A stretch of DNA of 34,721 nucleotides from Bacteroidia bacterium (GTDB lineage Bacteria; Bacteroidota; Bacteroidia; Cytophagales; Cyclobacteriaceae): NCBI GenBank assembly GCA_030425425.1, contig JAUIAO010000062.1, positions 1 to 34,721 on the forward strand, written 5' to 3'. How positions within the stretch are numbered: the first letter of the stretch is position 1; each line of letters opens with the position of its first letter. Position numbers and translations under genes: made by a program. This document shows positions 18,075-24,673 of this stretch, one piece after another. The notes under the pieces were generated by a model. That model did not search any database. It worked only from the letters and a program-made list of their open reading frames with translations, and had not been told where the DNA came from.

Positions 18075-18722
18075 TTATGACTCTTTCCATTTGATCGTGC
18101 AGCCGATAGCTCTTTTTTCAGTTACAGAAGGTGAATTACCAGAGAGTAGAGCTTCTATTGCATCTTCCACATACTTTTCTCGCACATCGGCAATTTCTCT
18201 AGGGCTATCGTCTATCGCTCCGATATACGCTACACGATAATCACTTTTACCTTCTTTATTCAGAACATAAACATGTGGAGTTTTAGTAGCTCCATAAGCC
18301 ATGGCAGTTTTCTGTGAGTCGTCCCTTAGGTAAGGAAAAGTATATCCTTTGTCTTTTGAACGTTTCACCATTTCTTCCATACTGTCCTCTGGTTTTTGTG
18401 AAATATCATTAGGGTTGATAGCTATTACAGGAAAACCCTGAGAAGCATATTTTTTGTCTAAATCCATGATTCTGCTTTCATACAACTTTGCGTAAGGGCA
18501 CGTATTGCAAGTGAAAACAACAATAAACCCTTTTGCTGTACCATAATCAGCTAAGGATACTTTATTTCCGTCTACATTGGGAAGAGAAAAATCAGCGGCC
18601 ATATCCCCAATAGCGTAGCCTGTTTGCTCTTCAAGAGTTTCTGTGGCGTGTACAAATAGCACCGCAACGGTCACTAATAGTCCGGTAATAATTATGATAT
18701 TTTTTTTCATGGAATCAATCAT
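18075..18722 (-). CDS. Thioredoxin-fold (AhpC/TSA-redoxin type) exported protein
   Basis: The 215-residue protein has a hydrophobic N-terminal export segment and a redoxin domain opening with IGDMAADFSLPNVDGNKVSL. The active-site region is FTCNTCPYAKLYE, giving a CxxC dithiol, and the cis-proline region is TKTPHVYVLN. The C-terminus AIGCTIKWK is shared by this Bacteroidota redoxin group. It probably reduces or oxidises thiols in the periplasm; the partner is unknown. The start ATG at 18722 overlaps the TGA of the upstream TlpA-like gene (ATGA), indicating translational coupling. An in-frame ATG at 18710 gives a shorter signal peptide and is the alternative. Confidence 0.83.
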   Translation of the reverse strand: MIDSMKKNIIIITGLLVTVAVLFVHATETLEEQTGYAIGDMAADFSLPNVDGNKVSLADYGTAKGFIVVFTCNTCPYAKLYESRIMDLDKKYASQGFPVIAINPNDISQKPEDSMEEMVKRSKDKGYTFPYLRDDSQKTAMAYGATKTPHVYVLNKEGKSDYRVAYIGAIDDSPREIADVREKYVEDAIEALLSGNSPSVTEKRAIGCTIKWKES

Positions 18723-19183
18723 TTTGAATGTTGTTCTATCAATTCTAACAACTCAGGTTCAGTAAAACTTTTTTCGTAGAAAAATCTTTTTTGATTATTG
18801 CTGATCACCAAAGTGGCGGGAATTGCCCCGGTCCAATCTTCCGAAATTGAAGGAATTAATTTATCGTAATTCGTTTCATCAAGCAAATAGCTTTCAAACC
18901 CAATTTCTCTTCTTTTCAAAGTACTCTTAGCTTTTTCTATTTCTTCTTTAAAATCGAGGCTCACCAATATGATTTCTGCATTCTTATATCCTTGTAGTTT
19001 TCCAAAGGCAGGGAGCTCTTTCACACATGGACCACACCAAGATGCCCAGAAGTTAACCACTTTTATATTTTCCGTAGGTTGATTGAGTATTTTATGAAGA
19101 TCGTCAAGTTGAATGGAAGAAATACCTTGAGAATGAACCGTCAGTCCAAACGTTATCGCACTAATCGCCAAAATGAATTTCAT
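18719..19183 (-). CDS. TlpA-like thioredoxin, exported
   Basis: The 154-residue protein has a signal peptide (MKFILAISAITFGLTVHSQ) and a TlpA/ResA-type thioredoxin domain with VVNFWASWCGPCVKELPAF and the cis-proline loop GAIPATLVIS. Such proteins keep periplasmic cysteines reduced, for instance during cytochrome c maturation. An in-frame start at 19228 would hide the signal peptide, so the ATG at 19183 is chosen. It is the first gene of a coupled pair with the redoxin gene (ATGA overlap), and the two may pass electrons to each other or to shared clients. Confidence 0.85.
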   Translation of the reverse strand: MKFILAISAITFGLTVHSQGISSIQLDDLHKILNQPTENIKVVNFWASWCGPCVKELPAFGKLQGYKNAEIILVSLDFKEEIEKAKSTLKRREIGFESYLLDETNYDKLIPSISEDWTGAIPATLVISNNQKRFFYEKSFTEPELLELIEQHSK

Positions 19184-19618
19184 ATGTTTGGGTACGTAAA
19201 TTGGGTGAAATTGTTGTGGAAATAACAATTATTGTACTATTCTAAGAACCTGTAACATTCTTTTATTTCTGTAGGTAAAAATCACTTAACATTAAGGAAA
19301 CCTAATAAATGTAATTTGATACACGTATTGGCTAAGAGTGGAAATCATTGATTTCGTGGGAGTTACAAAAGGTTATCACTTTTCTAATTTTGGACAAAAA
19401 AGAGAAGATTAAATTGAGAAATAATTATTGGAGTTTTTATTCACATTTTTCCCACTTTATCCACAGGGATGGCATTTTATGAAATAACACTCTGTATTTC
19501 AGCATCTTAAGGGAAGCTGATTAAATCTAATATCTGTGGATAAGTAAAATCAATTTTAAATTTCGAAAAAAGAAGCCGAAATATTCGAATATTTTCAACC
19601 AATAGCCCGGACGGCTGG
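19184..19618. other. AT-rich gene-free region with DnaA boxes (candidate origin)
   Basis: No gene is visible in these 435 bp. The stretch is markedly AT-rich and contains three TTATnCACA-type DnaA boxes within 107 bp (annotated separately), a 16-bp perfect palindrome AAATATTCGAATATTT at 19579-19594, and a bulged hairpin (19597-19620) overlapping the stop codon of the ClC gene. It must also hold the promoter of the TlpA-redoxin pair. Confidence 0.6.
19437..19543. other. Cluster of three DnaA-box motifs
   Basis: TTATTCACA at 19437-19445, TTATCCACA at 19457-19465 and TGTGGATAA (reverse complement of TTATCCACA) at 19535-19543 all match the consensus TTATnCACA exactly. The first two are in the same orientation with starts 20 bp apart; the third faces them. 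AT-rich sequence lies on both sides. This is the signature of a DnaA-binding region such as oriC or a DnaA-titration site. A one-mismatch search was not done exhaustively. Confidence 0.5.
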
Positions 19619-21412
19619 TTATTCCTTATTTTGACGTATGAGCTTCTTGCGATAGGCATTGAAAATGCGAGACTTTGACACAAATCCTAGATATTTTCCT
19701 TCATCAATGACTGGTAAATTCCATGCTTGGGTTAATTCAAATTTATTCATCACTGATTGCATTTTTTCCTGAGGGCTTACATACGCAGGAGGCTCTTGCA
19801 TGATTGTTTTTACGACAATATCAAGCTGCTTTTCTTCATCAAACATGATTTCGCGTATATCATCTAATGTCACAATCCCCTCCAATTCTCGATTCTCATT
19901 GATTACAGGGAATATGTTTCGATTGCTTCTTTTTACCAACTCCACCAACTCTCCGAGTTTTGCATCTGGGTGAATGGTCAGCAGATCTTTTTCAACAATC
20001 TTCTTCAGGTCGATCATTCTTAAAATTATCCGGTCATTATCATGCTGGATCAAATCACCTTTTTCGATCAGATGCTTGGTGTAAATACTGTGCTTTTCAA
20101 AATAAGAAATGGTAGTGAAACTTATTGCAGAAACGAGCATCAAGGGGACAAAAAGCATATATCCACCGGTGATTTCGGCGATCAAGAATATCGCCGTAAG
20201 TGGAGCATGAAGCACACCACTCATCACGCCACACATTCCTACTAATGTAAAATTGCTCGGGCTAATTGCCGCAGAAGGCATGATGATGTTGAATACTTTC
20301 GTAAATAAAAATCCAGTAAGGCCTCCCATAAACAAAGAAGGCGCAAAAACGCCACCACTACCACCAGATCCGATAGTTATTGCTGTGGCAAATGGCTTGA
20401 CTAGAATGATCAGGAATAGTACTCCGATAATTACAAAATCCTGCTCTGCGAAGGTGTAGAAGAAGCTTCCACTAAAAAATTTTAATTCATTACCGGTAAG
20501 AAGGGCTTTGATGGATTCGTAACCTTCTCCATATATAGGAGGAAATACGAAGATCATGAGTGCGAGAGCCAATCCACCGATCATTGCTTTGACATACGGA
20601 TTATTGACTTTGAAAATGTTGTCTTCTACCAGGTAAGTGATTTTTGTAAAATACAAAGAAGCCATCCCAGATGCTACACCTAATAGAATATAGTAAGGTG
20701 TATCTGCAGCGGTAAAGGCATCTACTAGTTTGAAGGAAAACATGATGTCTTCACCAATCAAAATGATCGAAACTAGCTGACCACTTACAGAAGCAATCAG
20801 AATAGGGATGAATTTGCTGATTTTTACTTCATTGAGTATGACCTCTATGGCAAATATCACACCGGCTATCGGGGAGTTGAAAATGGCCGAAATAGCCCCA
20901 GCAGCTCCACAGCCGATCAGCAGCGTTCGCTTTTTGTAGTCAAGGTGCATGAGCCCGCCGAAATTGGAGCCGATGGCAGATCCTGTCACCACAATAGGAG
21001 CCTCCAGCCCAACCGAACCTCCAAACCCAACCGTAATGGCACTTTTGAGCATGTTGGAAAACATATATCGTTTTCTGATTCGGCTGGAAGCCTTGTGTAT
21101 GGATCTTAGAATTCTCGTAATTCCATGACCAGGAGTGTCTTTGACAATAAACCTCCGGATCATCATTGTAATCATGATCCCGATGGCCGGATAGAAAACA
21201 TAAAGAAAATTGATTTTAGTAAGGTCAATATTTTGCTGCAATATGTGCTGCAAATAATGTACACTAGACTTGAGGGTAACTGCAGCAAGTCCGGCGATCA
21301 AGCCAATCGCACTTGCAACAATCAGGATGAAGGTGTTATCATTGATGTGTCTCAGTCTCCAAACCAAGAAACGCATCATTACACCATTGAAAAATTTACC
21401 AACCCGCTCCAC
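19619..21412 (-). CDS. ClC-family chloride channel/transporter with CBS domains
   Basis: The 597-residue protein has a ClC membrane domain (about residues 20-430) and two C-terminal CBS domains (about 450-590, e.g. MDLKKIVEKDLLTIHPDAKL and VVKTIMQEPPAYVS), which commonly bind adenine nucleotides. Selectivity-filter motifs are present: PGHGITRIL, GGSVGLEAP with the gating glutamate at Glu137, and GSGGSGGVFAPS. At the site of the internal proton glutamate the sequence is FAIEV, with Val191 where Cl-/H+ exchangers have Glu, so transport mode is uncertain. The start is GTG at 21412; tandem ATGs at 21379 and 21376 are plausible alternatives giving MMRFLVWRL. Confidence 0.9.
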   Translation of the reverse strand: MERVGKFFNGVMMRFLVWRLRHINDNTFILIVASAIGLIAGLAAVTLKSSVHYLQHILQQNIDLTKINFLYVFYPAIGIMITMMIRRFIVKDTPGHGITRILRSIHKASSRIRKRYMFSNMLKSAITVGFGGSVGLEAPIVVTGSAIGSNFGGLMHLDYKKRTLLIGCGAAGAISAIFNSPIAGVIFAIEVILNEVKISKFIPILIASVSGQLVSIILIGEDIMFSFKLVDAFTAADTPYYILLGVASGMASLYFTKITYLVEDNIFKVNNPYVKAMIGGLALALMIFVFPPIYGEGYESIKALLTGNELKFFSGSFFYTFAEQDFVIIGVLFLIILVKPFATAITIGSGGSGGVFAPSLFMGGLTGFLFTKVFNIIMPSAAISPSNFTLVGMCGVMSGVLHAPLTAIFLIAEITGGYMLFVPLMLVSAISFTTISYFEKHSIYTKHLIEKGDLIQHDNDRIILRMIDLKKIVEKDLLTIHPDAKLGELVELVKRSNRNIFPVINENRELEGIVTLDDIREIMFDEEKQLDIVVKTIMQEPPAYVSPQEKMQSVMNKFELTQAWNLPVIDEGKYLGFVSKSRIFNAYRKKLIRQNKE

Positions 21413-23269: not shown

Positions 23270-24673
23270 TTAGTCTTTAAGACTACCAATCATGTCTTCT
23301 GGTTTTACCCATTCGTCGAATTGTTCGCTTGTTAGCAAGCCTAATTCTATTGCCGCGGCACGGAGCGTAGTTCCTTCTTTATGTGCTTTTTTCGCAATTT
23401 TGGCAGCATTTTCATACCCAATATGGGTGTTTAGGGCAGTTACCAACATCAATGAGTTCTCCAGTTTTTCTTTGATTACCGGATGGTTTGGTTCAATACC
23501 TATAGCACAATTGTCATTGAATGACTCACAGGCATCTCCTATCAGCCTGGCAGATGTTAGCAGGTTGTAAACCATCATTGGCTTAAATACATTGAGTTCA
23601 AAATGTCCATACATTCCTCCAGCACTTACAGCCACATCATTTCCGATCACTTGTGCACACACCATGGTGAGGGCTTCTGTCTGAGTTGGGTTTACTTTAC
23701 CCGGCATGATAGATGATCCCGGTTCGTTTTCCGGAATGATAATCTCGCCAATTCCACTTCTAGGACCAGAAGCCAGCATTCTGATGTCATTACCTATCTT
23801 CATGAGACTTACTGCGAGCTGTTTCAATGCTCCGTGGGTTTCCACTATAGCGTCATGAGCAGCAAGAGCTTCAAATTTGTTTGCTGCAGTAACGAATGGA
23901 AGGCCAGAGTTTTCAGCGATTTTCTGTGCTACTAATTCCGCATATCCTGCCGGTGTATTAAGTCCAGTTCCAACCGCAGTTCCACCAAGGGCTAGCTCAC
24001 TTAAATGTTCCAATGTGTTTTTCAATGCTTTGATGCCATGATCTAGCTGAGAAACATAACCTGAAAACTCCTGACCTAGTGAAAGAGGAGTCGCGTCCAT
24101 AAAGTGTGTACGGCCGATCTTCACTACGTCCTGAAAAGCCTCAGACTTGGCTTTCAAGGTATCTCTCAGTTTCAACACTTTAGGAATGGTGTTTTCAACC
24201 ACAATCTGATATGAAGCAATGTGCATGGCCGTAGGGAAAGTGTCATTAGACGACTGGCTTTTATTCACATCATCATTTGGGTGGATGATTTTTTTATCAT
24301 CTGTTAGACTTCCTCCATTGAGTACATGAGCTCGGTTCGCAACTACTTCATTACAGTTCATGTTAGATTGAGTTCCAGAACCTGTCTGCCAAATTACCAG
24401 AGGAAATTGATCATCTAGTTTTCCTTCTAATATTTCGTCACATACTGCTCCTATAAGGTCTGCCTTCTCCTTCGGTAACACACCCAACTCCTGATTGGTC
24501 TGCGCTGCTGATTTTTTCAAAATGGCAAAAGCCCGCACAATTTCCATTGGCATGTGCATGTTTTCCCCACCTATTTTGAAATTTTCTTTAGATCGTTGGG
24601 TTTGTGCTCCCCAGTATTTTTCTGCTGGCACTTTCACTTCACCCATAGTGTCGTGTTCGATACGATATTCCAT
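23270..24673 (-). CDS. fumC: Class II fumarate hydratase
   Basis: FumC converts fumarate to L-malate in the TCA cycle; the class II enzyme is iron-free and oxygen-stable. The 467-residue sequence carries the superfamily signature [11 protein letters not shown] with the flexible-loop catalytic serine, plus [21 protein letters not shown] and [11 protein letters not shown], as in E. coli FumC (467 residues). The start ATG gives [16 protein letters not shown], the usual N-terminus. It is monocistronic and divergent from the iron locus, with a 251-bp gap. Placing an iron-independent fumarase next to an iron locus may be chance. Confidence 0.96.

Follow-up and report, generated by a model that had tools for sequence, protein, structure and literature searches.

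The interval between a thioredoxin/TlpA-like gene and a ClC channel gene carries a DnaA-box element, and the sequence comparisons presented here favour reading it as a DnaA-control locus that is non-coding, conserved and distinct from oriC. On the same footing, it appears fairly probable that the element controls the DnaA cycle, and it is likely not the oriC of its own genome. The window, i.e., the whole stretch of DNA analysed, is an entire contig of 34,721 bp from a 5.85-Mb draft genome in 121 contigs. By comparison of the ClC protein, the nearest named relatives are Marinoscillum species.

The left neighbour of the interval, the TlpA-like gene (18719–19183, minus strand), exceeds the Pfam cut-offs for AhpC-TSA and Thioredoxin, and the right neighbour, a ClC channel gene with CBS domains (19619–21412, minus strand), exceeds those for Voltage_CLC and CBS. 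With both genes on the minus strand, the gap is located upstream of the TlpA-like gene and downstream of the ClC-CBS gene. The initial annotation described 19184–19618 as gene-free, which holds if the TlpA-like gene starts at ATG 19183 and does not hold with a TTG start, from which the gene reaches 19228. An inverted repeat seen by eye at the 3′ end of the ClC gene (AACCA...TGGTT, 19597–19620) is perhaps the terminator of this gene. A search of the window against Rfam returned no matches.

The whole conserved element is matched by the sequence model R1 at 19436–19545 on the plus strand (65 bits, E-value 3.9e-17 in the window's own genome, which itself contributed to the 20 sequences behind the model). 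It consists of two tandem boxes, a central dyad and then an inverted box. The three exact boxes were recovered where the initial annotation had placed them: box 1, TTATTCACA, at 19437–19445 (plus strand), with its register kept in alignment A1; box 2, TTATCCACA, at 19457–19465 (plus strand), present in all 20 rows of A1; and box 3, TTATCCACA in inverted orientation, at 19535–19543 (minus strand), its start lying 78 bp from that of box 2. Between the tandem boxes lies a degenerate middle-box place, TTTTCCCAC (19447–19455, plus strand), which in loci L021 and L022 is occupied by an exact TTATCCACA at the 10-bp register. The single further exact TTATNCACA in the window is the copy inside fumC (24261–24269), as had been noticed before, and one-mismatch boxes are not enriched in the window (36 matches versus 41.9 expected). 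The 16-bp palindrome pointed out earlier at 19579–19594 is present in the sequence, outside the element; it was left out of the element because no counterpart was seen at the same place in the relatives L009 and L010.

Counted across the whole genome, TTATCCACA is not enriched, with 91 occurrences versus 86 for the reversed word. Direct pairs of TTATCCACA with a spacer of up to 30 bp number three, versus none for the reversed pattern, and one convergent pair was found. The search covered direct and convergent pairs with spacers of up to 30 bp, and it is these that we refer to as the four clusters of the genome. The other clusters sit upstream of nrdB/nrdA on contig C10, a cytochrome c-like gene on C119 and nrdJ on C86. 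Upstream of nrdB, two TTATCCACA boxes stand 20 bp apart (L005:9644-9672); the pair is kept in four relatives (L236–L239), is single or missing in five others, and is represented by four boxes in G027. These boxes recall the nrdAB genes of Escherichia coli, which are under DnaA control. On C86, nrdJ and an AraC-type regulator gene are separated by a stretch in which three TTATCCACA boxes fall within 126 bp (L004:9879-10004). The C119 cluster, between an ornithine-racemase-like gene and the cytochrome c-like gene, has a near-match to the dyad directly abutting two TTATCCACA boxes (L006:9965-10010) and recurs in two further genomes of the same genus (L055, L056); it is possibly a second DnaA/bend site.

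Conservation was assessed in a draw of 29 relatives, 19 of which belong to the window's family, the own genome included. The 78-bp pair is found beside the ClC gene, with at most one mismatch, in 14 of the 19 family genomes, and the spaced pair is missing from this place in the remaining five (G006, G010, G012, G014 and G016). In G012 the contig ends within the ClC gene; G006 lacks a close ClC gene, and there a triple box adjoins a TlpA-like gene. A sequence-only model was built from the 20 aligned cores of A1, which kept 20 of 21 rows, L077 being dropped because its second box looked spurious. This model matches 112 of 291 genomes of the order, including all 42 of the window's family, with G262 giving a weak match (2.6e-5). 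Second matches in family genomes fall mostly at the same place on the other strand, and at a different place in G270 and G303. A draw across the phylum yielded matches in 39 of 296 genomes, with eight family genomes at 1.3e-10 or better and none of the remaining 31 better than 2.4e-7. Weak matches in the family f42 (L249, L250, L252 and L253) adjoin an NrdJ-like stretch (31% over 111 aa).

At the 32 loci that were fetched, 30 of them from the window's family, the best-fitting spacing between boxes 2 and 3 is 78 bp in 17 and 77 bp in 15. The ClC gene adjoins 22 of these loci, nine together with the TlpA-like gene and 13 without it, while the TlpA-like gene alone stands beside eight and neither neighbour beside two. 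Either neighbour may thus be lost with the element staying, which argues that the element is kept for its own sake. Conservation of the boxes had been named by the initial annotation as a check on its proposal, and the cluster is indeed kept in relatives with near-constant spacing (42/42 family genomes; 77 or 78 bp at 32/32 loci). As far as sequence conservation can tell, the DnaA-box element is with high confidence under selection, and the box cluster is more than a product of chance, given the rarity of direct pairs and the conservation of a fixed spacing.

The dyad TAA-N4-CTG-N5-CAG-N4-TTA occupies 25 bp at 19485–19509, and each half of it resembles the IHF consensus WATCARNNNNTTR. By eye, the two halves agree with this consensus at 8/9 and 7/9 specified positions. 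Across relatives, with the better of two registers taken, both halves score a mean of 7.9–8.1 of 9, compared with 3.6 at other starts. The IHF kink falls in the CAR step, and the arrangement of two IHF-like halves in mirror image places the CAR steps 9 bp apart. This equals the distance between the two IHF bends stated in the available text of PMC8421141, from which the consensus WATCARNNNNTTR is also taken; the available text of PMC10380432 gives it as TAAnnnnTTGATW. At loci outside model building, the right dyad core is in place in 20 of 27 and the left in 18 of 27, against a mean of 0.03–0.07 per other place. These 27 are the 32 fetched loci minus L146–L150, whose genomes belong to the training set, and they are not wholly independent, having been picked by the model; the dyad profile left out L018 and L077. 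A hairpin in the dyad was rejected, as opposite positions pair no more than in shuffles, except at offset 12, which makes a protein site likelier than a hairpin. From its likeness to IHF sites, the dyad is rather probably bound by a DNABII protein.

The dyad pattern is also found elsewhere: across 29 genomes it has 99 matches, compared with 13 when the pattern is reversed, and G021 alone accounts for 27 of the 99. The dyad may therefore serve ordinary gene regulation. Its places elsewhere are outside longer open frames in 20 of 21 instances. A single dyad regulon was considered and set aside, as the genes flanking these other places have no common theme. For G021, a genome of another family, the count for the reversed pattern is zero. 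In G016, whose ClC gene is without the DnaA-box pair, the dyad pattern occurs about 250 bp upstream of dnaA (L228:2001-2025).

The interval combines a DnaA-box cluster with an AT-rich, gene-free stretch, as an oriC would, and an origin at this site was the reading first preferred. A first coarse test of GC skew used 20 stretches from each of four relatives and compared the right with the left of the site, giving p = 0.0001 in G270, 0.005 in G027, 0.016 in G291 and 0.76 in G017. The first three of these contrasts favoured the site as origin; the skew of G017 is uninformative and supports neither reading. Denser sampling of G270 (41 pieces) found the skew mostly negative for about 220 kb rightward of the site. 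That reading was dropped once this sampling moved the skew switch and exposed a region at 838 kb; an earlier strand-corrected fit of G027, with its best position at 1.67 Mb, had already disagreed with oriC at the site. In fits with gene strand as covariate, the switch of the complete genome G270 falls at 875–910 kb and the site at 650 kb, about 225–260 kb apart, and that of the complete genome G291 falls at 795–810 kb and the site at 559 kb, about 236–251 kb apart. The best switch in G027 is at 1.50–1.84 Mb with the site at 1.93 Mb, a distance of 95–430 kb to the other side. Residuals at the site relative to the best fit are 1.50 in G270, 2.17 in G291 and 1.50 in G027. The skew profile recommended by the initial annotation, as followed in relatives, hence speaks against the origin it had suggested: the site is off the switch in G270 and G291 and unfavoured in G027, with G017 uninformative.

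Other candidate origins were examined as well. The neighbourhood of dnaA in the own genome was rejected, since the 20 kb inspected there (L007) contain just two exact boxes, each isolated. The nrdB-side cluster was rejected on residuals of 2.0–2.1 times the best in G270 and G291; its residual in G027 is 1.03, a better fit than that of the site (1.50), so that G027 does not exclude the nrdB-side cluster as origin.

The region exposed in G270 is a gap at 838.2–838.6 kb, near the skew switch. It contains five exact boxes and a 50-bp stretch whose AT content is 0.94, and a TAATAGATAATAATAG run adjoins two further boxes with one mismatch each. Its skew residual ratio is 1.11, versus 1.50 for the site; the skew of G027 agrees well with neither of the two places. 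The gap is flanked by genes for a TPR protein and a DUF2141 protein, followed by a methyltransferase gene and then mnmG, the latter seen in G270 only. Counting this region (L269:18190-18565, i.e., G270:C1:838190-838565), origin-like TPR-side regions were collected from six genomes of four families, the others being L040, L043, L098, L254 and L059. In G013, G016, G086, G028 and G026, box clusters are bordered by a homologue of the TPR gene, and the second flanking gene is also present in these five, except in G086, where the contig ends. Boxes or model matches were the reason for fetching the five loci, so that the boxes beside their TPR genes are no independent finding. Of the six TPR-side regions, two contain the full dyad and five have a WATCARN4TTR half on one strand or the other. 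The ClC-side site and the TPR-side region coexist in G270 (L155 and L269), where they are 188 kb apart within 6.52 Mb, and in G013 (L017 and L040).

Strict trios were counted as WAR, a stringency of our own; the available text of PMC8287927 gives a looser rule of three NAN trios. The longest strict run is 2 at the own site, while the 32 loci have runs of 3 (two loci), 2 (thirteen) and 1 (seventeen), and the six TPR-side regions have runs of 4, 4, 3, 3, 2 and 2, a range overlapping with that of the ClC-side loci. The richest 50-bp stretch has an AT content of 0.72–0.88 at the 32 loci versus 0.86–0.96 at the six TPR-side regions, again with overlapping ranges. No least-stable position is common to the 32 loci, the positions being scattered. 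By these tests, the TPR-side region of G270 fits as origin better than the site does, and a TPR-side region is probably the oriC of these bacteria. With an origin-like region nearer the switch of G270, and with both loci present in G270 and G013, the element looks like a second DnaA-control locus. In the own genome, a TPR-side region or oriC was not found at 62 of the 82 TTATCCACA places outside the four clusters, which were checked for the TPR gene or its neighbour, and the candidate G003:C54 did not match. The own genome is presumed to share the layout of G270.

Could the element nevertheless be the chromosomal oriC of its own genome, with the TPR-side region serving as origin in some relatives only? 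The boxes in both orientations, the IHF-like site between them, the AT-rich gap and the strongest model match in the family would suit an origin, as would the coarse skew contrasts in G270, G027 and G291 and the absence of a TPR-side region from the places checked in the own genome. We nevertheless regard this reading as unlikely, given the strand-corrected switches elsewhere in G270 and G291, the lack of preference for the site in G027, the flat contrast in G017, the short trio run of the own site (1–3 at the 32 loci versus 2–4 in TPR-side regions, overlapping) and the separate origin-like region coexisting with the element in G270 and G013. The initial annotation had proposed an oriC or a DnaA-titration site; its oriC half is made less likely by the skew switch lying elsewhere and by the second region in relatives, whereas titration or control of DnaA appears to fit better.

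A promoter-regulatory site, through which the TlpA-like or a nearby gene would be controlled by DnaA together with another, dimeric regulator, is less likely still. It would agree with the position of the gap upstream of the TlpA-like gene, with the placement of the other clusters upstream of nrdB/nrdA, nrdJ and the cytochrome gene, and with the dyad places elsewhere avoiding longer open frames. However, the element stays where no TlpA-like gene adjoins it, at the 13 loci with ClC only and the two with neither neighbour, and the genes flanking the other dyad places share no theme. A chance cluster without function is hardly credible: TTATCCACA is not enriched in the genome and the window holds no excess of one-mismatch boxes, but the near-constant spacing and the positioned dyad recur over many genera. 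A DnaA-control locus apart from oriC remains the reading we prefer.

Such a locus can be compared with known systems. In the available text of PMC5742627 and PMC5835720, the E. coli locus datA is described as carrying, between essential DnaA boxes whose spacing matters, a site for IHF; it stimulates the hydrolysis of DnaA-ATP and lies in the part of the chromosome towards oriC. The former source adds that the essential boxes all point in the same direction. The element resembles datA as a non-coding DnaA-box cluster with a predicted IHF-type site between boxes, perhaps also in lying apart from oriC and yet on its near side, and it differs in that box 3 is inverted and the predicted bend site is double and symmetric. 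Lacking the common box direction, it is not classed as datA, although by analogy it may work like datA. The cores of DARS1 and DARS2 of E. coli have one box opposed to two at constant spacing (PMC5742627, available text), which recalls the one opposed and two tandem boxes of the element with their spacing of 77/78 bp, a comparison made at the level of box arrangement. According to the same text, the IHF site of DARS2 belongs, together with a Fis site, to a regulatory region that adjoins the core of three boxes, whereas the IHF-like site of the element lies between the opposed boxes. It also describes box clusters outside oriC in Bacillus subtilis and Streptomyces coelicolor that repress untimely initiation and are said to be analogous to datA; the element is likened to these chromosomal clusters at the level of description. 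Finally, an E. coli-type oriC is described there as having boxes in both orientations with an IHF site among them. The element shares both traits at the level of sequence, and the full dyad is also found in two of the six TPR-side regions; unlike an oriC, the own site is without a trio run of 3, and in G270 and G291 the skew switch is elsewhere. By analogy, the element looks like a combination of a datA-type bend site between boxes with DARS-type opposed boxes, in a layout of its own. A literature search, covering mostly papers outside subscription, returned no paper whose title concerns an oriC or a datA-like site in Cyclobacteriaceae; oriC-bearing plasmids are named for Cytophaga hutchinsonii in the available text of PMC5288383.

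We propose that DnaA would bind at both ends of the element, to the tandem boxes at one and to the inverted box at the other, and that a dimeric bending protein of the IHF/HU (DNABII) type on the central dyad would fold the DNA, so that the two DnaA groups could meet at a set distance. The resulting complex would change the amount of active DnaA reaching oriC by sequestration, ATP hydrolysis or ADP exchange, the sequence being compatible with either a lowering or a raising effect. As a tentative generalization, on which we place somewhat less than even confidence, Cytophagales may own a DnaA-cycle control locus: a 110-bp device near but apart from oriC, with a palindromic double site on which a homodimeric DNABII protein folds opposed DnaA groups together at 77/78 bp. 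Such a device would unite a bend site between boxes, as in datA, with opposed boxes, as in DARS, and would have its bend site in common with oriC.

The comparison carries a warning that a DnaA-box cluster and coarse GC skew alone are insufficient for naming an origin, and it points to a likely oriC beside the TPR gene in these bacteria. The resetting of DnaA activity has been worked out mainly in E. coli; a rigid 110-bp element that can be deleted or moved would make the control of initiation in Bacteroidota directly testable.
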